64,000 nt of DNA from the NCBI RefSeq assembly GCF_022788695.1, contig NZ_CP085154.1, positions 1,488,001-1,552,000 on the forward strand, written 5' to 3'. A model generated the notes under the pieces. The model searched no databases. It worked only from the letters and a program-made list of their open reading frames with translations, and had not been told where the DNA came from. Both the position numbers and the translations under genes were made by a program. Below are positions 37,456-63,821 of the stretch, in pieces. Numbering within the stretch: the stretch's first letter is position 1; each line of letters opens with the position of its first letter. Source of the stretch: Pseudosulfitobacter sp. DSM 107133 (GTDB lineage Bacteria > Pseudomonadota > Alphaproteobacteria > Rhodobacterales > Rhodobacteraceae).

Positions 37456-39030
37456 ATGGAATTGACAAGTCACGGCGTGCCACTGTTGTGGTTGACCAGG
37501 CAAGGTGCAGGTGTTGCGCAAACGGGGCAGGCGTCATGGCGGTCGGGGCCAGCGCTGCCTGATACGGTCGGTCGGCTGCATGCGGCATGGGACTGGGACG
37601 GTTCCACGCTGAACGCCAATGTGGACAGACACGGATTTCACAGCCTGTTCGTCTATCAAAAGGGCGATGAACTGGGCATTTCACCGTCGCTGCTGGCGCT
37701 GGTGGCGGCGGGTGCCGACACAACGCCCGACACCCGCGCACTCGCCGTGTTTCACCGGATCGGTGTGTTTATCAATGACGACACGCCCCTGAAGCACATC
37801 CGAACGCTGCCGCCCAACGGGCGGTTGACGTGGCAGGGAGGCGCGGCGCAGATCTCTGGCGACGTGGTGATGCCCAAAGCGCAAACCATCACCCGCGCCG
37901 ATGCGGTTGACGGGATGACCCATTACTTTCGCCAATCCATGCAGCGTGTTTTGTCTGCATGGGACGGCCCGCTGTTCCTGCCGCTCAGCGGCGGGCGGGA
38001 TTCGCGCCACATTCTGCTTGAGATGCTGCATCAGGGCCGGCAGCCGCAGGCCTGTGTGACCTTTCATCACAACGGCGCTGCCATGAACGGCGAAGCATTG
38101 GCCGCACGCGCCATTGCCACGCGGGCCGGTGTTGCGCACGACGTTCTGGGCCACGCACGCCCGCGTCTGGCAGATGCATTGCGCGCGGTGTTGATGACCA
38201 GCCTGTGTTCGGATGAACATGCGCAGATGATGCCCTTGCACGACTATATGATGGCGGCGGGCGGCGCGTCTTTTGACGGGGTTGCGGGCGATATTCTGAC
38301 CAACCCCGATGACGACGCCGAGGCGTTCTTCCGACTGGCGGAAAAGGACGACTTTACCGGCATTGCGCGCGGACTGACCTCGGGCCATGCGCGGGTGATT
38401 TCCGAAGGCGTTTGGGGGCAGGGCGCGGGGCCGATCCTGTCGCCCGGACAGGATGACGAGGTGCATGAATACATCGCAAGCGCCGTGCGCAAATATGCCA
38501 ATGCACCAGATCCTTACCAGATGTTCTGGATGTACCACCGCACCCGCCGCGAGATCAATTTTGTGCCGCAGGCCATTCTGTCGCCCGCCAGTCCGGTGTT
38601 CTGCCCCTATCTGGACCGCGACTTTGCCGATTTCTGCCTGTCGCTGCCCTATAGCGTGACGCGCGACCAGTTGCTGCATGACGACGTGATTGCCACCGCC
38701 TATCCCGATTTTGCCGATATCCCCTTTGCCGCCGGTTTCCCTGCGCCCGCAGCGCGCAGTGGTGGGGTGATGCACAAGCTGCGCAGCGTTGCCGATGTCA
38801 TGCGCATCACCGCGTCGTTGGGCGCAGAGGCCAGGCAACACCGCCGCGCGTTCCTGCGTCCGCCGCCGCAACTGAAACGCGGGCCGGATACGATGTTGCG
38901 CCTGCACACGCTTTGCCTTGACGGGCTGGATGCGGCGCGCGCGACACAGCTGCTGGACATTGCGGCCCAGCTTGAGGCCGCGCGCCCGAAACAGCTGGTT
39001 TCGGACGCAATTCCGTCAGGTGGCGCATGA
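37456..39030 (+). CDS. Asparagine synthetase-like amidotransferase in polysaccharide locus
   Basis: A 524-residue AsnB-like protein. The C-terminal ATP-pyrophosphatase half has the PP-loop LPLSGGRDSRHIL (about residues 176-188). The N-terminal glutaminase-like domain lacks the Cys directly after Met that class II glutaminases need, at either candidate start (37456 or 37420), so it probably uses ammonia or is a divergent amide synthetase. Similar proteins occur in surface-polysaccharide loci, where they may amidate uronic acids; this is inference. Its stop overlaps the next start (ATGA), so it is the first gene of a three-gene unit. Confidence 0.72.
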   Translation: MELTSHGVPLLWLTRQGAGVAQTGQASWRSGPALPDTVGRLHAAWDWDGSTLNANVDRHGFHSLFVYQKGDELGISPSLLALVAAGADTTPDTRALAVFHRIGVFINDDTPLKHIRTLPPNGRLTWQGGAAQISGDVVMPKAQTITRADAVDGMTHYFRQSMQRVLSAWDGPLFLPLSGGRDSRHILLEMLHQGRQPQACVTFHHNGAAMNGEALAARAIATRAGVAHDVLGHARPRLADALRAVLMTSLCSDEHAQMMPLHDYMMAAGGASFDGVAGDILTNPDDDAEAFFRLAEKDDFTGIARGLTSGHARVISEGVWGQGAGPILSPGQDDEVHEYIASAVRKYANAPDPYQMFWMYHRTRREINFVPQAILSPASPVFCPYLDRDFADFCLSLPYSVTRDQLLHDDVIATAYPDFADIPFAAGFPAPAARSGGVMHKLRSVADVMRITASLGAEARQHRRAFLRPPPQLKRGPDTMLRLHTLCLDGLDAARATQLLDIAAQLEAARPKQLVSDAIPSGGA

Positions 39031-40142
39031 TCGGGGAGGTGAAACTGCGGCTGGCCCGAACGCTGCACCGACGCAAACGCGCAGGGGCATTTCGCCGGCC
39101 CTTTGACGCGACGGCGACGCACAAGGTGCTGCTGCTCAGCGTCGATCATCCGATTCCGCAAAGCCAGATTTTCGGGTTCCACTATTATGCCAAGGCATTC
39201 CGCGACCAGATGGATGCCGACATACGCGAACACCCGGTCGAACAGGATCTGGATCCGGTAGCGTTGGGCGAAGCAACAACCATCTGTTTCCAAACCTATT
39301 TTGATATTTCCGATGCCGCACTTAACGATTTGGTCGGGCGCATTCGCGCAGGCAATCCGACGGCGCGGCTGGTCTATCTGGATTGGTTCGCGCCGACCGA
39401 CCTGCGTCTTGCCGCGCGGGTGGGGCCGCTGGTTGATGCCTATGTGTCCAAACATCTGTTGCGGGATCGCGGCCTGTATGGGCAGCCGACTTTTGGCGAC
39501 ACATCCCTGATGGATTATTACGGCCGCAGGCATGATCTGGACCACGAAGAACAGCGCTTTGCCATTCCCGACGGCTTTATGGACAAGCTGCACCTTGGCC
39601 CGTCGTTCATGACCGCGGATTTCATGCTGCCAGCCTTTGATCGGGGGCGTCTGCCACAGGGCGCGCGTCCGCTGGACCTGCATGCCCGTATCGCGGTAAA
39701 CGGTTCTCCCTGGTATGCCACCATGCGGCAGGCCTGCGTGGATGCGGTGAATGCGCTTGAGGGGGTCAACAGTGTGACGGGCATTGGCATTGGCCACGCC
39801 CGTTTCATGCGTGAAATCCGCGCCTCCAAGGTCTGTTTCAGCGCCTTTGGCTACGGCGAGGTCTGCTGGCGTGACTACGAGGCGATTGTCTGCGGTTCGG
39901 TGCTGCTGAAACAGGACATGGCCCATGTAGACACCGCGCCTGACATCTTTGTTCGGGACGAAACCTATGTGCCGGTCAAATGGGACCTGTCTGATTTTTC
40001 CAAGCGTTTGCAGTGGCTTTTGGATGACACGGCGGCACGTCAGCGGATTTCCCGCAATGCGTTCGGGGTGCTGCAAGATTATGCCCGCTCGGGCGCGTTC
40101 GTGAACCAGATGGCCCCGGCATTGTTCGGCGCGGCCCCATGA
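39027..40142 (+). CDS. Glycosyltransferase-like protein (GT-B C-terminal type)
   Basis: A 371-residue soluble protein. The C-terminal region has ASKVCFSAFGYGEVCWRDYEAI and GSVLLKQDMAHV, as in exostosin-like and DUF3880/GT1-like glycosyltransferases, where it binds the nucleotide sugar. The N-terminal half is divergent (KVLLLSVDHPIPQSQIFGFHYYAKAFRDQ). It overlaps its neighbours by 4 nt at both ends, so it is part of a coupled unit with the Asn-synthetase-like gene and the GT2 gene. Confidence 0.68.
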   Translation: MIGEVKLRLARTLHRRKRAGAFRRPFDATATHKVLLLSVDHPIPQSQIFGFHYYAKAFRDQMDADIREHPVEQDLDPVALGEATTICFQTYFDISDAALNDLVGRIRAGNPTARLVYLDWFAPTDLRLAARVGPLVDAYVSKHLLRDRGLYGQPTFGDTSLMDYYGRRHDLDHEEQRFAIPDGFMDKLHLGPSFMTADFMLPAFDRGRLPQGARPLDLHARIAVNGSPWYATMRQACVDAVNALEGVNSVTGIGIGHARFMREIRASKVCFSAFGYGEVCWRDYEAIVCGSVLLKQDMAHVDTAPDIFVRDETYVPVKWDLSDFSKRLQWLLDDTAARQRISRNAFGVLQDYARSGAFVNQMAPALFGAAP

Positions 40143-41083
40143 CTGCGCAGGTCGATGCGGTTGTGATCGGGCGCAACGAGGGCGCGCGCCTGATCGCCTG
40201 TCTTGCGTCTTTGCAAGGGCAGGTGGGGCGGATCATCTATGTCGACAGCGGCAGCACCGATGGCAGCGTCCAGGCGGCGACGCAGGCGGGGGCCGAGGTT
40301 GTGCCGCTGGACCTGTCGCAGCCCTTCACGGCGGCGCGGGCGCGCAATGCGGGGCTGGCGCTGTGTCGCGCCGATTTTGTGCAGTTCATCGACGGCGATT
40401 GCAGGGTTCAACCCGGTTGGGTGGCCGCAGCACTGGCGCATCTGCAAGCTGATCCTGCCTGCGCCGTCGTCTGTGGGCGGCGCCGCGAGACCGATGCCGC
40501 CGCCAGCGTCTACAACCGTCTGTGCGATATCGAATGGAACACGCCGGTTGGGGCCGCCCTTGCCTGTGGTGGCGACGCGCTGATGCGCCGTGCGGCGCTT
40601 GCTGACGTTGACGGCTTTGACCCTGCGTTGATCGCCGGAGAAGAGCCCGACTTGTGCCTGCGCCTGCGCGCGGCGGGGTGGGGCGTGTGGCGGCTGGACG
40701 CTGAAATGACCCTGCACGATGCGAACATCCACAGCTTTGGCCAATGGTGGCGGCGCACCCGCAGGGCCGGCTATGCTTTCGCCCAGGGGGCCGCGCGCCA
40801 TGGTGCACCGCCAGAGCGTCATTGGGTAACAGAAACGCGGCGCGCGCTGGTCTGGGGCGTGTTGCTGCCCCTGGGGATCGTGTTGGGGGCGCTGGTCTGG
40901 TGTCCGCTGGCGCTGCTGGCGCTGGCCTATCCGGTGCAGGTGTTGCGGCTGGCATGGCGCAGTGGCGATTGGTCCTGGGCGCTGTTCACAGTCTTGGGCA
41001 AGTTTGCCGAAGGCGGCGGCGCACTGCGTTACTATCTGGACCGCCTGCGCAAACGGCGCGGCGGGCTGATCGAATACAAGTAG
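40139..41083 (+). CDS. Glycosyltransferase family 2 with C-terminal membrane segments
   Basis: A 314-residue GT-A enzyme. The N-terminus AVVIGRNEGARLIACLASLQ, YVDSGSTDGSVQAA and the DxD-type motif FIDGDCRVQPGW mark the nucleotide-sugar site; GEEPDLCLRLRAAG is the ED-type catalytic block. Two hydrophobic segments (about residues 240-275) suggest membrane association. Likely builds a repeat unit on a lipid carrier. Confidence 0.88.
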   Translation: MTAQVDAVVIGRNEGARLIACLASLQGQVGRIIYVDSGSTDGSVQAATQAGAEVVPLDLSQPFTAARARNAGLALCRADFVQFIDGDCRVQPGWVAAALAHLQADPACAVVCGRRRETDAAASVYNRLCDIEWNTPVGAALACGGDALMRRAALADVDGFDPALIAGEEPDLCLRLRAAGWGVWRLDAEMTLHDANIHSFGQWWRRTRRAGYAFAQGAARHGAPPERHWVTETRRALVWGVLLPLGIVLGALVWCPLALLALAYPVQVLRLAWRSGDWSWALFTVLGKFAEGGGALRYYLDRLRKRRGGLIEYK

Positions 41084-41084
41084 C

Positions 41085-41834
41085 CTAGCGCGCCCGCCAC
41101 GCCCGCCACATCAGCCCGGGCAGGATCGCGAAACATTTGGCATAGCGTGGCACCATGCGCGCGGGACTGGTGGCGGCGCGCCACAGCCATTCCAGCGCCA
41201 GAATGCGCAGGATGCGCGGGGCGCGTGTCTGGTGACCGGCCAGAAAATCCAGCCCCGCACCAATCGACACCATCCCCACCGAAGGGGCCAGCAGTGCGGC
41301 GCGTGCGGCCAGACGTTCCTGTTTGGGCGCGCCAAAGGCCAAAAAGCACAGCCCCGCGCCCGAGGCCTCAAGATCGCGCAGAATGTCACCGGCGGCGTCA
41401 CTGTCCACATCAAACCCCATGGCGGGCGCGTGGCGATAGGCCACCGTGAGGTCGGGCACATGCGCGCGCAGATGCGCCTCCGCGCCGCTCAGCGCGGCGT
41501 CGCTGCTGCCGATCATGGCGATACTGCGACCGGCCTGTGCTGCCTGACGGGACAGCGGCACAATCAGGTCCGAACCTGTGATGACCTCGACAGGCTGGCC
41601 AGCCAATTGTGACATCCAGCGAATGGGCCGCCCGTCGGCCACGACAATATCGTGTTGGGCATAGGCGTCGGCAAAGACGTTGTTGCTGGCGATCTGTACA
41701 AGGTGGTCGAGGTTGACCGTGGCGAGGCGAAAGCCGGTCATGGTGTCCAGATGCGCGCGCACATCACGCAACAGGGCATCGCGGCGCGCATGGCTGATGG
41801 CCACTTTGCGACCGTTTTCTGTAATCAGGAACAT
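41085..41834 (-). CDS. WecB/TagA/CpsF-family glycosyltransferase
   Basis: A 249-residue GT26 enzyme that typically adds a second sugar to an undecaprenyl-linked primer. Family blocks: ATVNLDHLVQIASN, VVADGRPIRWMSQLAG, VITGSDLIVPLSRQAA, GAGLCFLAFGAPKQERLAAR and VSIGAGLDFLAGHQTRAPRI. It lies on the minus strand inside the polysaccharide locus, convergent with the GT2 gene (1-nt gap) and divergent from the polymerase-like gene. The start MFLITENGRKVAIS at 41834 is chosen over a longer open frame. Confidence 0.92.
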   Translation of the reverse strand: MFLITENGRKVAISHARRDALLRDVRAHLDTMTGFRLATVNLDHLVQIASNNVFADAYAQHDIVVADGRPIRWMSQLAGQPVEVITGSDLIVPLSRQAAQAGRSIAMIGSSDAALSGAEAHLRAHVPDLTVAYRHAPAMGFDVDSDAAGDILRDLEASGAGLCFLAFGAPKQERLAARAALLAPSVGMVSIGAGLDFLAGHQTRAPRILRILALEWLWRAATSPARMVPRYAKCFAILPGLMWRAWRAR

Positions 41835-41959
41835 GCACTTGCCACCCTTGTTTGTCGTGCCTTGATACTGTCCCCAAGCGACAATGCAAATGCCGACATG
41901 CGGGACAAGAGGCGCGGGGCGTGCTAAAGCCCCCGCAACTCTGATCTGCTGGACACCCA

Positions 41960-43423
41960 ATGCCCAACACGCTTGCCTACCTGATGTTGATGATCTGGCC
42001 ATTGGTCTGCCTGCTGTTCTGTCGTTTCATGCCGACCGAACGCGCAGTGATCTGGAGCATTCTGGGCGGCTATCTGCTGTTGCCGCCCGCCACCGGTTTC
42101 GATCTGCCGCTGGTGCCCGAGATGAACAAGACGTCAATCCCCAACATCTGCGCCTTTGCTCTGGCGATCACCTATCTGGGCCAGCGCGTGTCCCTGTGGC
42201 CGCAGGGATGGCCGATGCGCATCCTTGTGCTGCTGTTTGTGGCCGGTGTGATCCCGACGGTTCTGACCAACGGCGATGCGATCGTGTTTACCGGGCCGAT
42301 CCAGTCGGCCTCGGTGACGGGCACATCATTGCCGGGTCTGGGGCTGCGCGATTTGCTGTCCGTGATCGTGGGGCAGGTGATTGTGTTGCTGCCGTTCTTT
42401 CTGGGGCGCAGCCTGCTGGCCAGCGAAACGGGCCTGCGGGAACTGTTGCTGGCACTGGTGGTTGGCGCGCTGATCTATTCGGTGCCCGCATTGATCGAGA
42501 TCCGTCTGAGCCCTCAAATCAACATCTGGGTCTACGGGTTCTTTCAGCACAATTTCGAGCAGATGATGCGGCAGGGCGGTTTTCGCCCCATCGTTTTCCT
42601 GCCCCACGCACTGTGGCTGGCGTTTTTCGTGATGAGCGCGGCAATGGCGGCCTTTGCGCTGGGCCGCGGGGCCGATCAGCGCAGCACGATGCGTTATGTC
42701 GGTGTGGGGCTTTACCTGCTGGTGCTGCTGGTGCTGTGCAAAAGCGCCGCATCGCTGTTGTATGCCATGACACTGGCCCCTTTGATCCTGTTTGCTTCGG
42801 TCAAAATGCAGGTGCGTCTGGTGCTGGTGATCGCGCTGGTTGCGATGATTTATCCCATGTTGCGAAACAATGGGATGATCCCGACACAGGCGATTTTGGA
42901 GAAAGTCGAGGCCTATAATCCCGACCGCGCCCAGTCATTGGGATACCGGTTTGACAACGAAGAACGGTTGCTGGACCGCGCCGATGCCAAGCCGCTTTTC
43001 GGTTGGGGCGAATGGGGCCGCAACCTTGTGCGTGACAGCCGCTCGGGCCGGATTCTGACCATTCCGGACGGCGAATGGATCATCGTTTTCGGCAGTTTCG
43101 GTTGGGTTGGCTACATCGCACAGATGGGGCTGATCGGGGGGCCATTGATCCTGCTTTGGTGGGGGTTCGGGAACCTTCAGGTCGGTGCGCAATCGCGCTA
43201 TCTGGCGCCGGTGGCGATCCTGCTTTCCATCACCATGATCGACATGTTGCTGAACGCGATCCTGACGCCCTATACTTGGCTGATGGCGGGGGCCATTCTG
43301 GGAATCAGCGAAGCGCGCGTTCCCGCGGCGCCCGAAAAATGGCGCCGTCGGGTGGTCATCGGGCAGCGCAATCCCGACCGTTCAGGGGCCGTGCCAAGCG
43401 GTCGAATATCTGCAAGCCGCTGA
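41960..43423 (+). CDS. Wzy/O-antigen-ligase-like membrane protein
   Basis: A 487-residue protein with about ten to twelve membrane segments and a larger extracytoplasmic loop (YNPDRAQSLGYRFDNEERLLDRADAKPLFGWG, with the FGWGEWGRN and PDGEWIIVFGSFGWVGY segments). Topology and these motifs fit polysaccharide polymerases/O-antigen ligases, which are poorly conserved. The C-terminal tail is Arg-rich and cytoplasmic. It precedes the PKS gene by a 251-nt regulatory gap. Confidence 0.75.
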   Translation: MPNTLAYLMLMIWPLVCLLFCRFMPTERAVIWSILGGYLLLPPATGFDLPLVPEMNKTSIPNICAFALAITYLGQRVSLWPQGWPMRILVLLFVAGVIPTVLTNGDAIVFTGPIQSASVTGTSLPGLGLRDLLSVIVGQVIVLLPFFLGRSLLASETGLRELLLALVVGALIYSVPALIEIRLSPQINIWVYGFFQHNFEQMMRQGGFRPIVFLPHALWLAFFVMSAAMAAFALGRGADQRSTMRYVGVGLYLLVLLVLCKSAASLLYAMTLAPLILFASVKMQVRLVLVIALVAMIYPMLRNNGMIPTQAILEKVEAYNPDRAQSLGYRFDNEERLLDRADAKPLFGWGEWGRNLVRDSRSGRILTIPDGEWIIVFGSFGWVGYIAQMGLIGGPLILLWWGFGNLQVGAQSRYLAPVAILLSITMIDMLLNAILTPYTWLMAGAILGISEARVPAAPEKWRRRVVIGQRNPDRSGAVPSGRISASR

Positions 43424-43431
43424 TTCTATTG

Positions 43432-43674: not shown

Positions 43675-46600
43675 ATGAGTATGTCTTCTGTTCCTTCCAA
43701 GGTTTCGCCGCGCACAAACAGTGGCGACATTGCCATTGTCGGCATGGCGGCAGACGTGCCGGGCGCTGGCGATATCGCACAGTTCTGGTCGAACCTGGCA
43801 GGCGGTGTTGAAAGCATCGTTAAGATGGATCGTGACGCGCTGATTGCGGCGGGCGAGGATCCTGCAAAAATCGGGCAACGCAACTATGTGCCTTTTGCCG
43901 CGCCTCTGGGCGGCTTTGCCGACTTCGACGCCGAGTTCTTTGGCTTTGGCCCGCGCGAGGCGGCGATCCTTGATCCGCAGCACCGCAAGTTCCTGGAAGT
44001 GACCTGGACCGCGATGGAGCAGGCGGGCCATCCGCCGCGCAGCTTTGACGGGCGTATCGGCGTTTTTGCCGGCTGCGGGCAGGGCAGCTATTTTCACGAC
44101 AACATCCGCACCAATCCCGCGCTGGTCGAGGACGTGGGCCTGTTTCTTTTGCGCCATACTGGAAACGATAAAGATTTCATGTCGACGCGCGTCAGCCATG
44201 TGTTCGACCTGAAGGGGCCCAGCGTTTCGCTTCAGACCGCCTGTTCAACGTCGCTGGTGGCGATCCACTATGCGCGTCAGGCGCTGATGAACGGCGAATG
44301 TGACATGGCGCTGGCGGGGGGTGTCACCATCGAACTGCCGCAGGGGCGGGGATATCTGTACAAGGAAAATGAAATCCTGTCGCCCGACGGGCATTGCCAT
44401 GCTTTCGATCACCGCGCCAAGGGCACGGTATTCGGCAGCGGCGCCGGTGCCGTCGCGCTGCGGCGTCTGGAAGACGCGCTTGCCGATGGCGACCACATCT
44501 GGGGTGTGATCAAGGGCAGTGCGGTCAACAATGACGGCGCGGCCAAGGCGGGGTATCTGGCCCCCAGCGTCGAAGGGCAGGCAGACGCCATTCGCACTGC
44601 CCTGCACGATGCCAATGTCGCGCCCGAGACCATTGGGTATATCGAATGCCACGGCACCGGCACCTATCTGGGTGATCCGATCGAGGTGGCCGCCCTTGAC
44701 GCGGCACATGGTCCGGCGGGCGGCGTGGCCTGCCACATCGGCTCGGTCAAGACGAACATTGGTCACACCGACACCGCCGCGGGGGTTATCGGCCTGATCA
44801 AGACCACGCTGTCGCTGTACAACGCCCAGATTCCGCCCAGCCTGAATTACGAGGCACCCAACCCCGAGATCGACTTTGCAGGCTCTCGATTTGCGGTGGC
44901 CGACCGGCTGATCGACTGGCCCGAACCCGCAGATGCACCCCGCCGCGCGGCGGTCAATTCGCTGGGCGTGGGCGGCACCAATGCCCATGTCATTCTCGAA
45001 GAAGCCCCTGCGCGCGCACTGTCGGAAGAAAGCGATTTTCCGTTTCAGATCATGATCCTGTCGGCGCGAAGTAAAGTGGCGCTTGATGCGGCTTCAACTG
45101 CTTTGGCCGCGCATCTGCGCGCCCATCCCGAACAGCCTCTGGCCGACATCGCCTATACCCTGAAAGAGGGTCGTCACGGCTTTGGAATGCGCCGCGTGCT
45201 GGTCGCCCAGACCCATGAAGAGGCCGCCGCCCTGCTTGAATCAGGCGACCCGCAGCGCGTCCATACCCACACCGCCCGCGAGACCACACCGCAACTGGTT
45301 TTCATGTTTCCGGGCGGCGGCGCGCAATATCCCAACATGGCGCGCGATCTCTACGAGACCGAGCCGGTCTTTGCCGAATGGATGGACCGCGGGCTGGATC
45401 ACCTTGCACCGCAACTGGATTATGACATTCGCGCCCTGTGGTTTCCCGAACCGGGCCAAGAGGACGCTGCCGCCAAGACGCTGACCCGGCCGTCGGTGCA
45501 ATTGCCGCTGATCATGATCACCGAATTTGCGCTGGCGCAGCTGTGGCTGAGCTGGGGCGTGCGCCCCGCAGCGCTGGTTGGGCATTCGATGGGCGAAAAC
45601 ACCGCCGCCGCACTGGCCGGTGTGATGTCCTTCGAAGACTGTATTGATCTGGTGCTGTTGCGCGGCAAGCTGTTCGACACGGTGCCGGCGGGGGGCATGT
45701 TGTCGGTTCCGCTGACGCAAGAGGCGCTTTTGCCGCTGCTGGGCGCGGATCTGGATATTGCCAGCGTCAACGCGCCGGGTCTGTGTGCCGTGTCCGGCCC
45801 GCAGGCGGCGCTGGACGCACTGGCCGCACGGTTGACCGAACAGGGCATCGAAAGCCAGCGCGTTTCCATCGACATCGCCGCCCATTCGCGGATGCTGGAT
45901 GACATCCTGCCGCAGTTCCGCTCGCATCTTCAGGGCATGACCCTGCACGCGCCGCAGATGCAGATCATGTCGAACCGCACCGGCGCACCGCTGAGCGACG
46001 CGCAGGCGACAGACCCCGAGTATTGGGTCCAACAACTGCGCCAGACCGTGCATTTTGCCGATTGCATTGATGCGCTGGCCGCGCGCCCGTCGGTCTTTCT
46101 TGAGGTCGGGCCGGGCCGTGCGCTGGCCTCCCTGGCGCAGATGGGCCAAGCGGTTCAGCCGGGACAGGCGTTCAGCACCCTGCGCCATGCCAATCAGCCC
46201 ATTGCAGACGATGCACAGTTTCAGGCGGTGATCGGCAGGCTTTGGGCCTGCGGGATCAATGCCGACTGGGACCAGATCTGGGGCGGCGCACGGCGCAACC
46301 GCGTGGTGTTGCCAGGCTACCAGTTCCAGCGCAGCCGCTATTTCATCGAACCGGGCCAGCCCGCTGTAACACAGGCGCGCGCACTGTCGCGCACTGACGA
46401 CGTAAGCGCATGGGGCTATACCCCGCGCTGGCGTCCTGAAGCGGCCGATTGCGACATCGAAACCGAAGAAACACTGGGCAGCCCGCGCAACTGGCTGGTC
46501 TTTGCAGATGCGGCAGGTGCCGCAGCGCCCGCCATCGCCGCCTTGCGCTCCGCAGGCCACAGCGTTGTTACCGTCACATCCGGTGACAGCTTCCAGCGGC

Positions 46601-50142: not shown

Positions 50143-50148
50143 GATGAC

Positions 50149-55712: not shown

Positions 55713-56449
55713 GTGCAGGGCACAGTTTCAACGCCCCTGCCACCGCGCGCGATGCGGTGTCTGACCCCGCGCGGGCAGATGTGCTGCGCGGGCTGTTTCC
55801 ACCCGCCGTGGAAATAGCACTCAGCAACCCGCGCGCACCGCAACCCGCGCTGTGGCCTGATGAGGCGTCAGCCATCGCCCGTGCGGTGCCCGCCCGCGCA
55901 CAGGAATTCGCCGCAGGCCGCGCCGCTGCCCGCGCGGCTTTGGGCGCGCTGGGCCATCCGCCCGCTGCCATCCCCATGGCCCCCGACCGCGCGCCGGTCT
56001 GGCCCGCAGATGTGGTGGGCAGTATTTCGCACACCGCTGATCTGTGTGCAGCCGCCCTGGCACCCGCAGCCGCGTTTCGCGCCATTGGTATTGATCTGGA
56101 AGACCATGCGGATTTGCCTGCGGATCTGTTGCCCATGGTCTGCACGCTGGACGAACGTGCATGGCTTGCCAGCCAGCCACGGGACGCGGCGGGTATTCTT
56201 GCGCGGCTGATCTTTTCAGCCAAGGAATGCGCTTACAAATGCCAGTACCGGATGACGGAAACTTTGTTTGATTTTGATACGTTAGAGGTCACGCCCGACC
56301 TTGATACCGGCCAGTTCGAGGCGACCTTTACGCGCCAGATCGGCGCGTTCGGGGCCGGTGCCAGACTTGCAGGACGCTTTGTCATCACGCAGGATCTGAT
56401 TGCCTGTGGCATGGCGCTGGGCAGCACCCCCGGCGCGGCGCGGGGATAA
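55709..56449 (+). CDS. 4'-phosphopantetheinyl transferase (EntD/Sfp type)
   Basis: A 246-residue PPTase that would convert the PKS ACP and NRPS PCP to their holo forms. Visible blocks are EFAAGRAAARAALGALG, VVGSISHTADLCAAAL, AIGIDLEDHADLP (Mg-binding Asp and Glu) and LARLIFSAKECAYKCQYRMT (the FSAKE catalytic motif), the EntD-like arrangement. The GTG start overlaps the NRPS stop (GTGA), so it is made together with its substrates. Confidence 0.93.
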   Translation: MSAGHSFNAPATARDAVSDPARADVLRGLFPPAVEIALSNPRAPQPALWPDEASAIARAVPARAQEFAAGRAAARAALGALGHPPAAIPMAPDRAPVWPADVVGSISHTADLCAAALAPAAAFRAIGIDLEDHADLPADLLPMVCTLDERAWLASQPRDAAGILARLIFSAKECAYKCQYRMTETLFDFDTLEVTPDLDTGQFEATFTRQIGAFGAGARLAGRFVITQDLIACGMALGSTPGAARG

Positions 56450-56467
56450 GGGAATGACAAGACTGTT

Positions 56468-57397
56468 ATGAACCAGCGCATGAAGATCTGGATCGGTGCG
56501 GGCGCGGTCGCTTTGGCCGGCATCGTGGCTGTTCTGGCCCCTGCCGCACAGGCAGGCACGCGCCAGAGCGCTGCGGCACCGGATACCGCACCTGTCGGGG
56601 GGCTGAATGTCTATCATCTGGGGCATTCGCTGGTCGGGCGCGATATGCCTGCGATGCTGGCACAGTTCGCGCCAGACGGGCACAGCTATCACAGTCAGCT
56701 GGGCTGGGGGACACCCCTGCGTGCGCATTGGGAGCCCGACGTGGAAATCAACGGCTTTGACACCGAAAACGCCCATCCGGCGTTTCGCCCTGCACGCATT
56801 GCGATTGGCAGCGGGGCCTTTGACGCGGTGGTTTTGACCGAAATGGTCGAGATCGAAGACGCCATTCGCCATCACGACAGTGCCCGGTATCTGGAAAAAT
56901 GGGCGACACTGGCGCGCAGCAACAATGCCGGTGCGCGGGTCTATCTGTATGAAACGTGGCACCAGCTGGACGACCCCAAAGGATGGCTTGAGCGTATCGA
57001 CAGTGATTACGCGGCACTTTGGCTGGGACAGGTCGTGCAACCGGCGCAGGGGGCAGGTGCTGTGCGCATCATCCCCGCGGGGCAGGTCATGGCGGCGCTG
57101 GTGCGCAGGGTCGAAGCGGCGGGCGGCGTCGGGCCGATGCAGACCCGTCACGACCTGTTTCGCCGCAACGCAGATGGCACGCAGGACATGATCCACCTGA
57201 ATGATCTGGGCAATTACCTTGTCGCGCTGACGCATTATGCGGTCCTGTATCACCGCACGCCTGTGGGCCTGCCATATGAGATGCGCCGCGCCGATGGCAG
57301 CGCTGCGGTATCGGTGGGGCCGGCGCTGGCTGGCATGATGCAGGAAACCGTGTGGCAGGTGGTCAGCACCCGCCCTGAAACCGGAGTCGCGCCATGA
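56468..57397 (+). CDS. Exported SGNH/GDSL-like protein
   Basis: A 309-residue protein with an N-terminal signal anchor (about residues 6-29, IWIGAGAVALAGIVAVLAPAAQA). The mature part opens with LNVYHLGHSLVGRDMPAML, where the Ser in GHSL is the likely block I nucleophile; a late IHLNDLGNYLVALTHY may supply the catalytic His. It could be a periplasmic esterase or acyl/acetyltransferase acting on the glycan or lipopeptide. It starts 18 nt after the PPTase gene and overlaps the next start by 4 nt. Confidence 0.62.
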   Translation: MNQRMKIWIGAGAVALAGIVAVLAPAAQAGTRQSAAAPDTAPVGGLNVYHLGHSLVGRDMPAMLAQFAPDGHSYHSQLGWGTPLRAHWEPDVEINGFDTENAHPAFRPARIAIGSGAFDAVVLTEMVEIEDAIRHHDSARYLEKWATLARSNNAGARVYLYETWHQLDDPKGWLERIDSDYAALWLGQVVQPAQGAGAVRIIPAGQVMAALVRRVEAAGGVGPMQTRHDLFRRNADGTQDMIHLNDLGNYLVALTHYAVLYHRTPVGLPYEMRRADGSAAVSVGPALAGMMQETVWQVVSTRPETGVAP

Positions 57398-59082
57398 AGT
57401 TAAGCCGTCGCACCCTGTTGGCCGGTCTGACAGCCGTGCCGTTCATTCCGCATATGGGCGCGACTGCGCCGGGGACGCGGCTGGCCATGAACCTTGCGCC
57501 GATCAATGACTGGAGCACGCAGCAACCGTTTATTGACGTGTTCAAGACCGCGCGGCGCTGGATCGGACATTTGCCCGGGCGCTGGGGCGGGCAGGACTAT
57601 GCCGCATTGGTCGCGCGTGGGCTGCTGGACGGCGATGGCTGGCCGACGCAGGTGCCGGGTGATCTGTCATCCATCGGGACAGTGATCCTGACCGATCTGC
57701 CCGTCGCGGCCACAGCTCTGTCGGGCCGCTATCACCTCAGCTTTGACGGTGCGGGCATTGTCGAGGTGACGGGGCGGGCGCACAATGTGCGCTATGGCGA
57801 CAACTCGGTCAGTTTTGATTTTACACCGGGGCAAGGGCCGGTCGAGGTGCGCGTGCAACGCAGCGACCCCTTTGGCGTCGGGGATTATATACGCAATATC
57901 AGTGTTGTGAGAGATGATCTTCAAGCGTTGCACAAGCAGGGGGCGCTGTTCCGGCCTGACTGGGCAAATGGGCTGAAAGGTCTTGCCAGTCTGCGCTTTA
58001 TGGACTGGATGAACACCAACAACTCTGACGCACAGGATTGGGACAGCCGCGCCAAAATCGGCGATTTTTCCTATGCGCGCCACGGCGCCCCGATCGACGT
58101 GATGATGGCGCTTGCCCGCGAGACTGGGGCAGAGCCGTGGATTTGCGTGCCGCATCTGGCGGGTGACGCCTATGTGCGCGCCATGGCCGAAGCGGTGCGG
58201 GCGGCGCTGCCGGATGGCCTGCGCGTGCATGTCGAGTTTTCCAACGAGGTCTGGAACTGGCAGTTTGCGCAAACCGAATGGGCCGACGCGCAGGCGCGCA
58301 CGCTTTGGGATGTTGCGGACCGTGGCGCGCAGTTCCATGGCCTGCGCGCCGCCGAGGTGGCGCGGATCTGGTCGGATGTCTTTGCACAGGACCGGGCGCG
58401 GCTGGTCAATGTGATTGCCACACAGACCGGCTGGATGGGGCTGGAAGCGGATATTCTGACCGCGCCGCTGGCGGTGGCCGATGGCTGGGACGCGCCGGTC
58501 GAGGCCTTTGATGCCTATGCGATCACCGGCTATTTCGGTCATATCCTTGGCACCGACAAGCGGCGGGCGTTAATTGCGGATTGGTTGAGCGACAGTGCCA
58601 AGGAGGCTGCCGACAAGGGGCAGTCGGAAGGTTTAACAGGGGATGCGCTGACTGAATATGTTGCCGCGCACCGTTTTGATCTGGCAACCGAACGCGCTGC
58701 AGGCGAGCTGCGCAACGGTGCCGAAAGCGGCGAGGTCTCTGACACCATTCACGATCTGGTCACCCGCGTCTGGCCCTATCATGTCGCAGTGGCGCAGCGG
58801 CACGGGCTGGACCTGACCATGTACGAAGGCGGCAGCCATGTGGTTGGCCTTGGCACACAGATAGATGACGCAGAGCTGACCGCGTTCTTTGTTCATCTCA
58901 ACTACAGCAGCGAAATGGGTGCGCTTTACCGCGACCTGATGGCGGGCTGGGCAAAGTTGGGGGCAGGGCCGTTCAACCAGTTCAACGATCTGGCCGCCCC
59001 CGGCAAATGGGGCAGTTGGGGCGCGATGCGCTGGCCGGGCGATACCAACCCGCGCGCCCAGGCAATCGAGGCGCACAAGTGA
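57394..59082 (+). CDS. Tat-exported glycoside hydrolase-like protein
   Basis: A 562-residue protein with a twin-arginine signal (MKLSRRTLLAGLTAVPFIP). The central region, MDWMNTNNSDAQDWDSR, PWICVPHLAGDAYVRAMAEAV and VHVEFSNEVWNW, resembles (beta/alpha)8 glycoside hydrolases, with the Glu in EFSNEVWN as the likely acid/base and a later MYEGGSHVVG Glu as a possible nucleophile. A beta-sandwich-like part precedes it (about residues 90-180). It may trim or remodel the exported glycan; the family cannot be assigned by eye. It overlaps both neighbours by 4 nt. Confidence 0.62.
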   Translation: MKLSRRTLLAGLTAVPFIPHMGATAPGTRLAMNLAPINDWSTQQPFIDVFKTARRWIGHLPGRWGGQDYAALVARGLLDGDGWPTQVPGDLSSIGTVILTDLPVAATALSGRYHLSFDGAGIVEVTGRAHNVRYGDNSVSFDFTPGQGPVEVRVQRSDPFGVGDYIRNISVVRDDLQALHKQGALFRPDWANGLKGLASLRFMDWMNTNNSDAQDWDSRAKIGDFSYARHGAPIDVMMALARETGAEPWICVPHLAGDAYVRAMAEAVRAALPDGLRVHVEFSNEVWNWQFAQTEWADAQARTLWDVADRGAQFHGLRAAEVARIWSDVFAQDRARLVNVIATQTGWMGLEADILTAPLAVADGWDAPVEAFDAYAITGYFGHILGTDKRRALIADWLSDSAKEAADKGQSEGLTGDALTEYVAAHRFDLATERAAGELRNGAESGEVSDTIHDLVTRVWPYHVAVAQRHGLDLTMYEGGSHVVGLGTQIDDAELTAFFVHLNYSSEMGALYRDLMAGWAKLGAGPFNQFNDLAAPGKWGSWGAMRWPGDTNPRAQAIEAHK

Positions 59083-59897
59083 GCCTGTCTGCAACGGTTG
59101 TCATTCCGGCCCATGACGAGGCGGCCTATATCGGTGCCTGCCTTGATGCGGTCTTTGCCTCGGATCTTGGGGGCGCTGAACTGCAAGTGGTTGTGGTGGC
59201 CAACGGCTGCCATGACAGAACCGCGCATATTGCGCGCAGCCATGCAGCGCCAGGGCGCAAGCTTGAGGTGATCGAGACGCCGCGCGGTGACAAGCTGCAC
59301 GCGCTGGATCTGGGTGATGTGGCGGCCAGCTTTGGCACGCGGATCTACCTTGATGCCGATGTGATCGTTTCCGAGGGGTTGCTGGCCCAACTGATTGCGG
59401 CGCTTTCGGGCGATGCGGCCTGCTATGCCAGTGGGACGCCGGTGATTTCGCGCGCCCAAAGCCGTCTGACCCGCGCCTATGCACGGTTCTGGCAGCGCTT
59501 GCCGTTCTTTTCGCAGGATGTTCCGGGTTTTGGCATATTTGCGATGAACCGTGCAGGGCGCGCGCGTTGGGGCGCGTGGCCGCGGATCATTTCGGACGAC
59601 ACATTTGTGCGGCTGCATTTCACCCCGTCCGAGCGGGTCCGCGTGCCGGCGCGCTATGAATGGCCCATGGTCGAGGGCTGGGAGCGTCTGGTGAAGGTGC
59701 GGCGACGGCAGGATCGCGGCGTGGCCGAGATTGGCGAACGCTATCCGGCGCTGCTGGTCAATGATGGCACAGAACCGTTGGGGGCTGGCAGGATCATGGC
59801 GCTGGCGGCGCGTGATCCGGTCGGCTTTGCGGTTTATGCGGCGGTGTCGCTGGCGGTGCGCTTGCCCGGGCCTGCGGGCTGGGTGCGCGGGCGATGA
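59079..59897 (+). CDS. Glycosyltransferase family 2
   Basis: A 272-residue GT-A enzyme beginning SLSATVVIPAHDEAAYIGACLDAVF (GTG start in a GTGA overlap with the hydrolase-like gene). VVVVANGCHDRTAHIAR and IYLDADVIVSEGLL mark the sugar-nucleotide site; IISDDTFVRLHF is the ED-like catalytic segment. It is the last gene of the operon. Its 3' end overlaps the convergent GT4 gene by 64 nt. Confidence 0.88.
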   Translation: MSLSATVVIPAHDEAAYIGACLDAVFASDLGGAELQVVVVANGCHDRTAHIARSHAAPGRKLEVIETPRGDKLHALDLGDVAASFGTRIYLDADVIVSEGLLAQLIAALSGDAACYASGTPVISRAQSRLTRAYARFWQRLPFFSQDVPGFGIFAMNRAGRARWGAWPRIISDDTFVRLHFTPSERVRVPARYEWPMVEGWERLVKVRRRQDRGVAEIGERYPALLVNDGTEPLGAGRIMALAARDPVGFAVYAAVSLAVRLPGPAGWVRGR

Positions 59898-61099
59898 TCT
59901 GCGGCGGTGCGGATATGGGTGGCCAGCTTGCCCGCTTCGGTGTCGACATCATGACGCGCCAGCACGCGGCTGCGGGCGGCGGCCCCCATCGCGGCCAGCT
60001 CTGGGCCGGGCGTTTGCGCCATCGCGACCCATGCATCGGCCAAGGCGTCGGTATCGCCCGCAGGCACCAGCCAGCCGGTCGTGCCATGCTGCACCAGCTC
60101 GGGGGTTCCCGCGATATAGGTGGCGATCACGGGGCGGGCGGCGGCCATTGCCTCCATCACGACCATCGGCAGACCTTCGGCAAAGCTGGGCATCATCAGC
60201 CCGTGCGCCGCCGCCAGCCTGTCGCGCACGCCTGCCTCGTCCAGCCAGCCGGTCAGCGTGACATACGCGCCCAGTCCGGCCTGCGCAATCTGCGCCTCAA
60301 GCACCGGGCGCAAGGGGCCATCCCCGATCAGGGTCAGATGCAGATCGGGTGCGCGTTCCAGTGCAGCCTTCAGCGCGGGCACCAGCATCATCTGGCCCTT
60401 TTGCTCGACAAAGCGGCCGATGGCGACAAGGTGCAGCGGGCCGTCGGGCATCGGCGCAGGGTCGGCAAAGCGCGCGGGTTCGATGCCGCAATGCACCACC
60501 TTGATGCGATCCCAGATCTCGTGACCGACCAGACGGCTCAGCTGCGAGCGGCCAAAGCTGCTGATGGCGACGGTGAATGCCGATCGGGTGATTTTATCCC
60601 CCAGCGACAGCGCGCGGGGCGCATCGAATTCTTCGGGTCCGTGGACGGTAAAGCTGTAGTGCGGCCCGCCCATGGCGTGCGCCAGCATGGCCACCGTCGC
60701 GGCATTGGTGCCAAAATGGGCATGGCAATGCAGCGTTGCCCGCGCGGCGCAGCGGCGGGTGATATGTGCGGCCTCAACAAGGTAGATCAAATGTCTCAGA
60801 CGTCCGACCTCGCTGCGCCCGCCATGTCGCCAGGCAAGACGCAGCGCGTCCAACATGGCGCGCGGCGCATGCAGGGTTTGGCACAGCAGATCGCGCAGCA
60901 GGGCCGGCGCGCCGGTCTTCAGCACATAATGGGTCGCCGCTGCCTCGGCGCGGTCGCCGTCATCGACCAGTTCCGTGTCCGCAGCGCGCATGGCAATGCG
61001 GTCCACCTCGAACCCCTGACGTTCCAGCGCCTGCACCTCGCGGCGGATAAAGCTGTGCGAGGGCTGGGGATAGGTGTTGAGAACATAGGCGATCTTCAT
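59834..61099 (-). CDS. Glycosyltransferase family 4
   Basis: A 421-residue GT-B enzyme. The N-terminus MKIAYVLNTYPQPSHSFIRREV is typical of colanic acid-type GT4 transferases. The C-terminal half has LVAIGRFVEQKGQMML, LTLIGDGPLRP and the EX7E region FAEGLPMVVMEAMAAARPVIAT. It is on the minus strand, with its start facing the flippase gene. Confidence 0.93.
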   Translation of the reverse strand: MKIAYVLNTYPQPSHSFIRREVQALERQGFEVDRIAMRAADTELVDDGDRAEAAATHYVLKTGAPALLRDLLCQTLHAPRAMLDALRLAWRHGGRSEVGRLRHLIYLVEAAHITRRCAARATLHCHAHFGTNAATVAMLAHAMGGPHYSFTVHGPEEFDAPRALSLGDKITRSAFTVAISSFGRSQLSRLVGHEIWDRIKVVHCGIEPARFADPAPMPDGPLHLVAIGRFVEQKGQMMLVPALKAALERAPDLHLTLIGDGPLRPVLEAQIAQAGLGAYVTLTGWLDEAGVRDRLAAAHGLMMPSFAEGLPMVVMEAMAAARPVIATYIAGTPELVQHGTTGWLVPAGDTDALADAWVAMAQTPGPELAAMGAAARSRVLARHDVDTEAGKLATHIRTAADHRPRTQPAGPGKRTASDTAA

Positions 61100-61221
61100 G
61101 GGGCGGTGCTCCGGCTTGACTGGGGGCAGGGTAGTTGCGCGGGCGCGCGGTACAAGTCGATTGCGCTGCATCGCGGTATTTTGGCGCCCGCAGGTGGCAT
61201 TTGCGCCCCGCAAGGCCGCAC

Positions 61222-62580
61222 ATGAAACGGGTGGTCACAGCCTTTGCCGGCAACCGCCTGACCGCGCGCATTCTGCGCAGCGCGTCGTGGGTGATGGTGG
61301 GCTATGGCGGTGCGCAGGTGATCCGGCTGGCGTCGAACCTGATCCTGACGCGGCTGCTGTTCCCCGAGGCCTTTGGCCTGATGACACTGGTCACGGTGGT
61401 GACGGTGGGCTTGATGATGTTCTCTGACGTGGGCATCGGCCCTTCGATCAGCCAGTCCAAACGCGGGGATGATCCCGATTTTCTGAACACCGCTTGGACG
61501 ATTCAGGTCATGCGCGGCTTTGCCCTGTGGATGGTGACGCTGATTTTGGCGGTGCCGATGGCGCGGATCTATGACGAACCGTTGCTGACCACCTATCTGC
61601 CGCTGGCAGGGGTGGCGCTGGTGATATCGGGGTTCATGCCGACACGGATCGAAACGGCGCACCGCCACCTTGTTTTCGGGCGGCTGACCATGCTGGACCT
61701 TGCCGCGCAGGCGATTGGTGTGCTGGCCATGATCGTGCTGGCGCTGGCCACGCGGTCGGTTATCGCGCTGGTGCTGGGCAGTCTTATCACCGTGCTGGTC
61801 AGGCTGACCCTGACCTCGCTGTTCCTGCCGGGGGCGGGCAACCGGTTCCGGCTGGAACGTGCTGCGGTGACCGAGCAGTTGCACTATGGCAAGTGGATCT
61901 TCCTGAGCACCGCATTCGGCTTTGTCAGCGCGCAGGGTGACAAGGCGGTGCTGGGTGCGCTGGTCGATCTGGGCACGCTGGGGATTTACAACATCGGCTA
62001 TTTCCTCGCCAGTTTTCCGGTGCTTCTGGGCGGCACGCTGGCGGCGCAGCTGCTGATCCCTATCTATCGTGACCGCCCCCCGTCCGAGAGTGCTGCCAAC
62101 CGCGCACGCCTGCGCAAGATGCGGATGCTGATGACAGGCGGCATTTTCGGGATGCTGGCGGTGATGGCCCTGGGCGGGCCCTGGCTGGTCGGCTTTATGT
62201 ATGATGCCCGCTATGCGCCTGCGGGTGGCATGATGGTGCTGATTGCGCTGGCGTTTCTGCCGCAAGCGATTGGCCTGAGCTATGACCGCGCGGCGCTGGC
62301 AGCAGGGGATTCACGCGGGGCCTTTGTCTATTCGGCGCTGCGTTCGTCGTTACAGATCGTGATGCTGTGGGCGGGCTTCCAGATCTTCGGGCTGGTCGGC
62401 GCGCTGATCGCCGTGGGGCTGGCGCTGTTGCTGTCCTATCCGGTGCTGGTGCGGCTGGCACGGCGGCATGGCGCATGGGACGGGCTGCACGATGCGGTGT
62501 TTGCCGGCTTGGCGCTGGGGCTGACAGCACTGGCGCTGTGGCTGCACTGGGCCGATTTGACAGCCCTGCAAAGCCTCTAG
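61222..62580 (+). CDS. Wzx-like polysaccharide flippase (MATE/MOP superfamily)
   Basis: A 452-residue membrane protein with about 12 to 14 helices. The N-terminus ASWVMVGYGGAQVIRLASNLILTRLLFPEAFGLM is the hallmark of Wzx/PST-type flippases. It would move lipid-linked repeat units, possibly carrying the PKS/NRPS group, to the periplasm. Divergent from the GT4 gene; its TAG shares a CTAG with the convergent chain-length gene. Confidence 0.92.
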   Translation: MKRVVTAFAGNRLTARILRSASWVMVGYGGAQVIRLASNLILTRLLFPEAFGLMTLVTVVTVGLMMFSDVGIGPSISQSKRGDDPDFLNTAWTIQVMRGFALWMVTLILAVPMARIYDEPLLTTYLPLAGVALVISGFMPTRIETAHRHLVFGRLTMLDLAAQAIGVLAMIVLALATRSVIALVLGSLITVLVRLTLTSLFLPGAGNRFRLERAAVTEQLHYGKWIFLSTAFGFVSAQGDKAVLGALVDLGTLGIYNIGYFLASFPVLLGGTLAAQLLIPIYRDRPPSESAANRARLRKMRMLMTGGIFGMLAVMALGGPWLVGFMYDARYAPAGGMMVLIALAFLPQAIGLSYDRAALAAGDSRGAFVYSALRSSLQIVMLWAGFQIFGLVGALIAVGLALLLSYPVLVRLARRHGAWDGLHDAVFAGLALGLTALALWLHWADLTALQSL

Positions 62581-63821
62581 CGGCGACGCAGGGGCCGGGG
62601 CAAAAGCCCGCGCCGCCGGTTTTTCCTGGGCCGCATCTGCGGGATCGACACCACAGGGCGCAGACCCAGCGTATGTTCCATCTGGGCGGCCGAGCGTATC
62701 ACCGGATGGCGCAGATCCAGCAGGAAGGCAGTCGCGACGGCGGCAATCATACTGGCCACAGCGCCAAGCAGGGCAAGCACCTTGCGCGAGCGGGTATAAG
62801 GATATTCGGGCAGCGCCGCGGGTTCCAGCACGGTCAGCCGGTCAGCCTGGCGCTGTGTTTCAAGACGGTAGGCGATCTCGGCCTCCTTGCGGCGGGCCGT
62901 GGCGGCTTCAAGTTCCGCCTGAAGCGCGGTGCGCTTGCGGTCATAATCATCAAGCTGGCGCTGCGCTTCGGGTGTTCCCTGGATGGTGCTGTTCATCGCT
63001 TCAAGATTGCTGGTCAGCAACGCGCGCTGTGCGGTCAGGGTGTCCAGCTCTTCTTGTTGTTGTTCCCGATTGCGCCGCTCGACCCGCGATTGGGGCGCAA
63101 TGGCAATCTGGCGCTGAAGGGCGATCATCTGGCGGTCAATGGCCAGGATCGACTCGTTCAGGGTTGCAATCTCGTTTTGCACACGGATCGCATTGCCGGG
63201 CAGGGCGATGTCATTACTGGCGCGGAACTGGCTGATCTCGCGTTCCAGCTTGTCGATCGCAAGGCCTGCCTCCTGTTCCTGTGCGGAAAAGAAATCCAGC
63301 GCATCACGCGAGCGCACAAGCCTTGTGTTGGTGCTAAGCTCCATCGTGCGTTGCGCCACATATTGAGCAAGCGACTGTGCCCCTTCGGCAGTGGGCCAGT
63401 CGACACTGATGCGCACAAGCGACACTTCGCCATCGTCATTAAATCCCTGACGGGCAGCGCTGACTTCGGAAATTCTGACCGCATTGCGGAATGCGACCAC
63501 TTTTTCTGACTCGGTCAGCGCGGGCTGGTCGGCGAACAGGTCCAGTTCCTTGGCAATTTCCAGAATGGCCGTGCGCGACATGATTTGCTGTTCGATCAGC
63601 TGAAGCCTGCGAGCATCCGATCCCTGAACGGTCGTGGCGGCCATTTCTCCGGGAATGATGGCGCCCTGCATCTGAAGCACTTCGGACGAGGAATACATAT
63701 GGCGCTGGGACGCGGCAACATACAGGGACAATATGCAGCCAAGCACAAAAACCAAAAACACGACGCGGCGGCGTCGGGCCAGCATGTCGAGAAAATCGGC
63801 TACCGAAAAGACAGACCCCAT
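62577..63821 (-). CDS. Wzz/GumC-type chain-length determinant protein
   Basis: A 414-residue inner-membrane protein with TM1 at about residues 20-37, a long periplasmic coiled coil (about 160-330, including DALDFFSAQEQEAGLAIDKL and ELEAATARRKEAEIAYRL) and TM2 near 345-370 after the Pro-rich PAALPEYPYTRSRK. It ends in an Arg-rich tail (RKNRRRGLLPRPLRRR). It sets glycan length and pairs with the tyrosine kinase encoded just upstream; the gap between the two genes is 3 nt. Confidence 0.92.
   Translation of the reverse strand: MGSVFSVADFLDMLARRRRVVFLVFVLGCILSLYVAASQRHMYSSSEVLQMQGAIIPGEMAATTVQGSDARRLQLIEQQIMSRTAILEIAKELDLFADQPALTESEKVVAFRNAVRISEVSAARQGFNDDGEVSLVRISVDWPTAEGAQSLAQYVAQRTMELSTNTRLVRSRDALDFFSAQEQEAGLAIDKLEREISQFRASNDIALPGNAIRVQNEIATLNESILAIDRQMIALQRQIAIAPQSRVERRNREQQQEELDTLTAQRALLTSNLEAMNSTIQGTPEAQRQLDDYDRKRTALQAELEAATARRKEAEIAYRLETQRQADRLTVLEPAALPEYPYTRSRKVLALLGAVASMIAAVATAFLLDLRHPVIRSAAQMEHTLGLRPVVSIPQMRPRKNRRRGLLPRPLRRR

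Follow-up and report, generated by a model that had tools for sequence, protein, structure and literature searches.

A polyketide-peptide assembly line within an exopolysaccharide locus of Rhodobacteraceae: linkage, predicted chemistry and possible role

What is a small polyketide-peptide assembly line doing among the genes for a sugar coat? The question is raised by a 64,000-nucleotide stretch of the genome of Pseudosulfitobacter sp. DSM 107133 (contig NZ_CP085154.1, positions 1,488,001 to 1,552,000; hereafter the window). Positions 37456-63821 hold a Wzx/Wzy-type exopolysaccharide (EPS) locus, and within it lie genes for a type I polyketide synthase (PKS), a nonribosomal peptide synthetase (NRPS)-like protein, and a phosphopantetheinyl transferase (PPTase). 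An earlier note on this DNA took the PKS and NRPS genes to be joined to the polysaccharide genes.

The analysis supports this view for the window's own clade, in which assembly line and polysaccharide genes form one evolutionary unit. The likely product of the assembly line is a small chemical group destined for the sugar coat, and not a free antibiotic; we consider it fairly probable that the EPS polymer, or its lipid-linked repeat, carries that group. The genes, their catalytic motifs, the code for glycine and monooxygenase, the linkage, and the co-occurrence are observed directly.

Linkage to polysaccharide genes

The family was sampled as 295 genomes, one per genus. The NRPS has a match at E ≤ 1e-60 in 112 of them, and in 102 (a count that includes one divergent line, G144) the match covers at least about half of the protein. 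(Dropped for partial matches were G022, G068, G085, G097, G114, G147, G155, G244, G258, and G263; G097 still holds pieces of the PKS, the NRPS, and GT2b, the glycosyltransferase encoded between them, within an EPS locus.) Draws at the level of the order and of the class gave NRPS matches in 85 of 196 genomes (E ≤ 1e-150) and in 5 of 289 (E ≤ 1e-200), respectively, one of the five lying outside the family.

The 40 kb around the NRPS gene were fetched in 30 family genomes. PKS, GT2b, and NRPS stand in this order in 29, the exception being G144, and the PPTase is present in 28. A second set consists of 80 named loci, the best 80 of at least 543 confirmed relatives, which as the best-scoring ones lean towards close kin and have at least six genomes in common with the first set. 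These contain GT2b (80), NRPS (80), PKS (79), and PPTase (74); the trio is in order in 79, and the locus without PKS lies on an 8.7 kb contig. The best-scoring named NRPS relatives come from Roseovarius, and the linkage of the trio is conserved across the Roseobacteraceae and Paracoccaceae (NCBI names).

Polysaccharide genes travel with the trio. Nine were followed as an EPS set: GT2a, WecG, Wzy, GT2c, GT4, Wzx, Wzz, SGNH, and GH-A, all described below. At least four are found in every one of the 29 genomes with the ordered trio, and none in G144. Each of the 80 named loci has at least one, and 73 have at least three. When SGNH and GH-A are excluded, 78 still have at least one; the two without are L091, a 9.9-kb contig, and L139, which has a mannose-1-phosphate guanylyltransferase-like gene. 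As a control, 20 stretches of 20 kb were chosen arbitrarily in 12 related genomes and placed by hand away from the locus; none contains an EPS-set gene (0/20). That two unrelated loci lie side by side by chance is hardly credible: synteny and control refute it, and the arrangement is conserved in Roseobacteraceae, Paracoccaceae, plasmids of Hyphomicrobiales, and Hydrogenophaga.

Locus layouts were then compared with a tree of the PKS and NRPS proteins (built from the 70 rows in which both proteins are complete, out of 81: the 80 loci and the window). The layouts change 10 times on this tree versus a mean of 33.6 for shuffles, and none of 200 shuffles is as low. Because layouts were labelled by fetched locus content (L140 and L158 are labelled C owing to contig ends, and L098 is labelled apart as its Wzx lies elsewhere), the change count is approximate. 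The clustering suggests that the assembly line and the EPS genes were mostly inherited together. Since the layouts follow the tree, free movement of a PKS/NRPS cassette among EPS loci was rejected as the main picture; likewise, the synteny search in Rhodobacteraceae proposed by the earlier note revealed in close relatives no mobile PKS/NRPS block independent of the polysaccharide genes. Whole loci do move, as layouts A and B both occur within Roseovarius.

Two probably exported proteins of the locus, SGNH and GH-A, co-occur with the NRPS even where they are encoded elsewhere in the genome. The SGNH gene is present in 53 of the 295 genomes, every one with an NRPS match. The GH-A gene is present in 105, of which 97 are NRPS-positive, including genomes in which it is unlinked to the locus.

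Similar associations occur more widely. By annotation, Aminobacter and Shinella (Hyphomicrobiales) plasmids carry PKS, NRPS, and PPTase beside flippase, OPX, and O-antigen-ligase genes in a different order, the Shinella locus also having a WecG-type glycosyltransferase and a polyprenyl sugar transferase. In tblastn searches, two Shinella loci hold relatives of most window families, including a GH-A relative (29-32%), and Aminobacter holds fewer. Plasmids of Paracoccus, Ruegeria, and Parasedimentitalea have PKS-GT2-NRPS beside polysaccharide genes (the PPTase is not always annotated), and the betaproteobacterium Hydrogenophaga has the assembly line with GT2, WecG, GT4, and sugar transferase genes. 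A further NRPS protein is encoded in Hydrogenophaga (L136, 18753-24758: A, PCP, C, A, PCP, and TE domains) and in a Paracoccus locus (L168, 1-3262, by annotation), so the product may be larger there. On the plasmid of Ruegeria SCSIO 43209 (L218, 26745-30659), genes for UbiA, GtrA, an FAD oxidoreductase, and an SDR protein stand in a row near PKS/NRPS. This row resembles the mycobacterial polyprenyl-phospho-arabinose set, which is of note given that the best fold match of GH-A is GH51.

Gene order and encoded enzymes

The bounds proposed earlier, 37456..63821, do enclose EPS genes, but the locus extends beyond it as far as an initiating sugar transferase gene, ending past the window at G000:C1:1553532 (G000, contig C1, being our label for the source genome). 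In order, its genes and two domains of the NRPS are:

37456..39030, plus strand: asparagine-synthase-like protein (PF00733, 21 bits, at the cut-off; best NCBIfam match below cut-off)
39027..40142, plus: putative glycosyltransferase (weak PF13524 match, 0.0013)
40139..41083, plus: GT2 glycosyltransferase a, GT2a (PF00535, 4e-19)
41085..42002, minus: WecG/TagA/CpsF-family glycosyltransferase (PF03808, 7.6e-40; the start may be 41834)
41960..43423, plus: membrane protein like Wzy polymerase or O-antigen ligase (PF04932, 2.5e-07; 31.1 bits versus a cut-off of 31.7)
43675..50142, plus: type I PKS of one module, namely ketosynthase (KS), acyltransferase (AT), ketoreductase (KR), dehydratase (DH), acyl carrier protein (ACP), and thioesterase (TE), from Pfam domains
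50149..51180, plus: GT2 glycosyltransferase b, GT2b, between PKS and NRPS (PF00535, 5.6e-10)
51177..55712, plus: NRPS-like protein with formyltransferase, spacer, adenylation (A) domain split by a monooxygenase (MOx), and carrier (Pfam, TIGR04020)
51177..52076, plus: formyltransferase domain of the NRPS (PF00551/PF02911; Asn91, His93, Asp129)
53397..54449, plus: MupA/Atu3671-type flavin monooxygenase inside the A domain (TIGR04020, residues 741-1091, E 3.7e-138)
55709..56449, plus: Sfp-type PPTase (PF17837, PF01648)
56468..57397, plus: SGNH esterase-like protein with N-terminal helix, probably exported (structure model, weak fold matches)
57394..59082, plus: exported clan GH-A glycosidase-like protein, 'TatX' (export signal read by eye)
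59079..59897, plus: GT2 glycosyltransferase c, GT2c (PF00535, 6.6e-14; GTGA start)
59834..61171 (within 59834-61213), minus: GT4 glycosyltransferase, EpsE-like (PF13692, 1.7e-34; EpsE family below cut-off)
61222..62580, plus: Wzx flippase (PF13440, 4.1e-40)
62577..63821, minus: Wzz-like chain-length protein (TIGR03007, 6.3e-27, below cut-off; Pfam Wzz E 0.14)
G000:C1:1551825-1553532, minus, past the window: CpsD-like (kinase-like) protein (PF01656, and TIGR03018 at 2e-22, both below cut-off), then the initiating polyprenyl-phosphate sugar transferase (PF02397, 1.5e-56)

The first two genes are local additions, each present in one of the 30 related genomes. In the same 40-kb surroundings of the NRPS gene, GT2a is present in 27 of these genomes, the WecG-type gene in 28, and the Wzy-like gene in 22. 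Pfam and NCBIfam agree with the earlier note on each gene type that it had named (three GT2 proteins, WecG/TagA, Wzy-like, PKS, NRPS, PPTase, Wzx, and Wzz-like) and on its position, with the Wzy- and Wzz-like proteins scoring below cut-offs. The run 43675-59897 indeed has mostly ATGA or GTGA junctions: four 4-base start/stop overlaps (GT2b/NRPS, ATGA; NRPS/PPTase, GTGA; SGNH/glycosidase, ATGA; glycosidase/GT2c, GTGA) and two gaps, of 6 and 18 bases. A plus-strand open reading frame (ORF) at 59894-61225 was rejected as a gene; it has no Pfam or NCBIfam match, and the GT4 gene lies there on the minus strand. A tRNA-Leu gene (37209-37292) and a Hint-domain gene (36524-37048) directly precede the locus, and the Parasedimentitalea plasmid locus likewise has a Hint-domain gene close to its edge. 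The stretch 36524-37292 is a possible insertion boundary.

The NRPS-like protein had been described as formyltransferase, adenylation, and carrier protein. Those domains are present, but the description overlooked the TIGR04020 luciferase-like FMN monooxygenase that interrupts the A domain; the carrier is at the end. Alignments comprised 85 NRPS rows and 104 PKS rows (some genomes are present twice), and the embedded monooxygenase is found in 85 of 85. Asn91, His93, and Asp129, which we take to be the catalytic residues of the formyltransferase domain, are kept in 84, the remaining row being gapped there. The spacer of about 200 residues that follows this domain is poorly conserved; it is possibly a remnant of a condensation (C) domain. 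Pfam finds no condensation domain in the NRPS. A protein of this kind can only start a chain, and the PKS, which has no loading module, would be its natural receiver.

Which starter is loaded? The A-domain code in the window, DILQYGMIWK, matches the published code DILQLGMIWK at 9 of 10 positions, and the excerpt of PMC12283262 gives the latter as common to all four glycine-activating MOX domains of its set. Codes in the 85 rows are DILQMGMIWK (49), DILQLGMIWK (21), DILQFGMIWK (7), DILQYGMIWK (4), and others (4), with the consensus DILQ-x-GM(I/V)WK. In the parts of PMC11342130 that describe myxothiazol and melithiazol, a monooxygenase within glycine A domains places a hydroxyl on the alpha carbon; cleavage of the N-C bond follows, and a TE frees the resulting carrier-bound glyoxylate. 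Given the code and these precedents, the best reading is that the NRPS loads glycine and oxidises its alpha carbon.

The NRPS ends, after a variable linker, in a basic segment resembling MSKRRAMRAxR in 76 of 85 rows (found with a loose regular expression; window 55652-55712), which may be a docking piece. A single in-frame stop interrupts the NRPS frame at G250:C2:520600, G025:C8:115948, and G377:C77:25235, reflecting either decay or sequencing error.

The PKS has one module, as the earlier note said; KR, DH, and TE are additions to its account. Conserved in 104 of 104 rows are the KS motifs TACST and HGTGT, AT GHSMGE, carrier GGxS, and TE GxSGGG. The AT fingerprint, IAAHS, is neither the usual malonyl nor the usual methylmalonyl one, so malonyl as substrate is a guess. 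The last residues of the PKS are AAE in 97 of 135 frames, the codons varying (window 50131-50142); this tail may act in docking or owe its presence to a ribosome-site effect.

The two enzymes encoded downstream were examined through their folds. The SGNH protein (model pLDDT 90.8) gives weak matches to CE3, CE2, and GDSL enzymes and to the periplasmic domain of an LPS acetyltransferase (Foldseek E 6e-4 at best); its GHS54 and D240-x-x-H243 motifs are invariant in 26 of 26 sequences. The GH-A protein has the TIM-barrel fold and two catalytic Glu residues of a clan GH-A glycosidase, with GH51 as best fold. Sequence searches of the PDB with the GH-A alignment and with GT2b returned no match.

A possible role on the polymer

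In the following scheme, all of the chemistry, the sequence of transfers, and the attachment to EPS are inferred. The PPTase would activate the carriers. The NRPS A domain would load glycine, the N-terminal domain would formylate it, and the embedded flavin monooxygenase would hydroxylate the alpha carbon; the intermediate may retain this hydroxyl or, as with myxothiazol, break to carrier-bound glyoxylate. The starter would pass to the PKS, which would add one malonyl unit and then reduce, and the PKS thioesterase would transfer or release the diketide. GT2b might glycosylate the diketide or build its acceptor sugar; export and polymerisation would fall to Wzx, Wzy, and Wzz; and, outside the cell, the polymer may be trimmed or re-acylated by the exported GH-A enzyme and by SGNH. 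The predicted product is a short, polar acyl group in which an N-formyl-(hydroxy)glycyl or glyoxylyl part is extended by a single C2 unit and reduced.

The product is thus most likely a formylglycine-primed, oxidised diketide, presumably carried on EPS. Such carriage accounts for the linkage itself, for the constant presence of a glycosyltransferase in the middle of the trio, and for the co-occurrence of the two enzymes that resemble an esterase and a glycosidase. More tentatively, at a little short of an even chance, a diketide derived from formylglycine or glyoxylate may sit on every repeat unit of a family-wide EPS, not act as a secreted bioactive compound; one glycosyltransferase and two exported enzymes would then be dedicated to this decoration, the exported pair recognising the polymer that bears it.

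Several observations weigh against this picture. Pfam scans of the window recognised no acyltransferase for attaching the group to a sugar. The DH domain follows KR, and its His motif, read by eye, has an extra residue in the window protein, so reduction may stop at the hydroxyl. The SGNH gene is absent from 59 of the 112 NRPS-positive genomes, 8 of the 112 lack both SGNH and GH-A, and 8 of the 295 genomes have GH-A without an NRPS match. In G193 and G215 such a GH-A gene lies beside TamB/Omp85/uricase genes, which argues against strict coupling; the nine ORFs scanned there contain no PKS or NRPS. (A 40% PPTase relative adjoins the gene in G193; a 33% 'NRPS' match in G215 was rejected, being an AMP-binding enzyme.) One EPS stretch, L215 (G104:C1:3520000-3539999), has no PKS/NRPS match and shares many families: Wzx-like, GT2a, GT2b-like, Wzy, GT4, GT2c, WecG, GH-A (34%), sugar transferase, Wzz-like, and kinase. 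It is possibly an undecorated relative.

NRPS/PKS proteins of 39-47% identity in G144, Aliiroseovarius M344, Methylobacterium bullatum, and G705 also belong here: they have no close relatives of the EPS genes nearby, and in the last two the only match from the EPS set is GT4 at 26-27% (a tblastn-level comparison of unannotated loci). The claim that PKS/NRPS and polysaccharide genes are joined therefore holds for the window's clade and fails for these distant genes, and the chemistry itself is not tied to EPS. On our reading, it predates the EPS setting or has left it, and the clade containing GT2b is the EPS-bound one. Formyltransferase-adenylation-monooxygenase-carrier (F-A-MOx-T) relatives of about 45% identity also adjoin large NRPS/PKS proteins where the EPS genes of the window are absent (L170, 13441-27180; G144:C1:394557), perhaps as a free natural-product pathway, and the Aliiroseovarius F-A-MOx-T locus lies near XrtD.

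Such distant genes favour a different explanation, in which the product is a free secreted small molecule that GT2b glycosylates and the flippase perhaps exports, the EPS genes being mere neighbours. The PKS thioesterase could simply hydrolyse, no attaching enzyme was recognised in the Pfam scans, and PMC10584327 treats NRPS-like/type I PKS (T1PKS) clusters of related species as possible antibiotic or antitumor pathways. Set against this are the EPS-set genes in all 80 named loci and in 29 of 30 genomes, the co-occurrence of GH-A and SGNH with the assembly line even when unlinked, and the lack of any dedicated exporter or resistance gene in Pfam scans of the run. A free molecule is, on balance, unlikely.

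Less likely still is a product that serves the polysaccharide as its lipid or terminal anchor, and not as a substituent of the repeat unit. Such a role has been proposed for RkpA-type capsule PKSs. A single module and a glycine starter predict a short polar group and not a lipid, and Wzx, the Wzy- and Wzz-like proteins, and the polyprenyl-phosphate sugar transferase supply the usual carrier; the precedent in its favour is the type I PKS gene within rhizobial and Burkholderia capsule clusters (PMC3908369, as excerpted).

Glycan decoration is relevant to surface attachment, phage binding, and interactions with algae. If the EPS polymer does carry the assembly-line product, PKS/NRPS clusters common in an abundant aquatic family have been misread as possible antibiotic genes and instead shape the cell surface, and assembly-line diketides join the known means of decorating bacterial glycans. 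The proposal makes a defined and testable prediction: a glycine-derived substituent on EPS.

Comparison with known systems

Type I PKS genes in capsule clusters and orphan NRPS-like/T1PKS clusters are already known; the connection of this cluster to EPS appears to be new. Among the matches listed from open-licence papers, no title or abstract opening links the cluster to EPS, and the excerpt of PMC4359443 holds nothing specific to it. Two reports nevertheless come close. PMC10584327 records hybrid NRPS-like/T1PKS clusters in 18 of 37 species (Roseibaca and related), the R. domitiana cluster having low similarity to MIBiG entries; its discussion speaks of antibiotic and antitumor peptides, and the term polysaccharide does not appear in its main text. 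These clusters may be the same genes as those described here. In Phaeobacter inhibens, the excerpt of PMC4062626 lists a PKS (Inhi_1972) and an NRPS (Inhi_1974) whose tags are one gene apart, a spacing that fits the PKS-GT2b-NRPS trio, the likeness being one of tags alone.

Among characterised systems, RkpA and WcbR of the rhizobial rkp and Burkholderia wcb clusters resemble the window's PKS in that a type I PKS gene lies within a cluster for surface-polysaccharide synthesis and export (PMC3908369, excerpt). The comparison is by description only, and the excerpt on rkp and wcb mentions no glycine-loading F-A-MOx-T partner, no GT2b, and no SGNH/GH-A pair. The Wzz-, kinase-, and asparagine-synthase-like parts resemble families associated with XrtA in XrtA/PEP-CTERM EPS loci, all scores being below family cut-offs.

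The NRPS-like protein combines features of three other systems. LgrA, the initiation module of linear gramicidin, has the domain order F-A-T and is not known to have an embedded monooxygenase. The order of formyltransferase, adenylation, and carrier is thus shared, and LgrA is the best PDB match of the whole protein (9be3, 1.3e-167); the formyltransferase domain alone, however, is nearest to ArnA and FMT, and LgrA is not among the 44 matches listed for it. The closest solved structure to the monooxygenase domain is PuwE of the puwainaphycin pathway (6ket, 1.1e-98), which is proposed to give a 2-hydroxy group (PMC4219810, excerpt); PuwE lies between a PKS and an NRPS module and not inside an A domain. 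Myxothiazol and melithiazol share with the window both the monooxygenase within a glycine A domain (PMC11342130) and the Gly-MOX code (PMC12283262), each as excerpted. There, glyoxylate is released by a terminating TE (PMC11342130), whereas here the NRPS begins with a formyltransferase and has no C domain.

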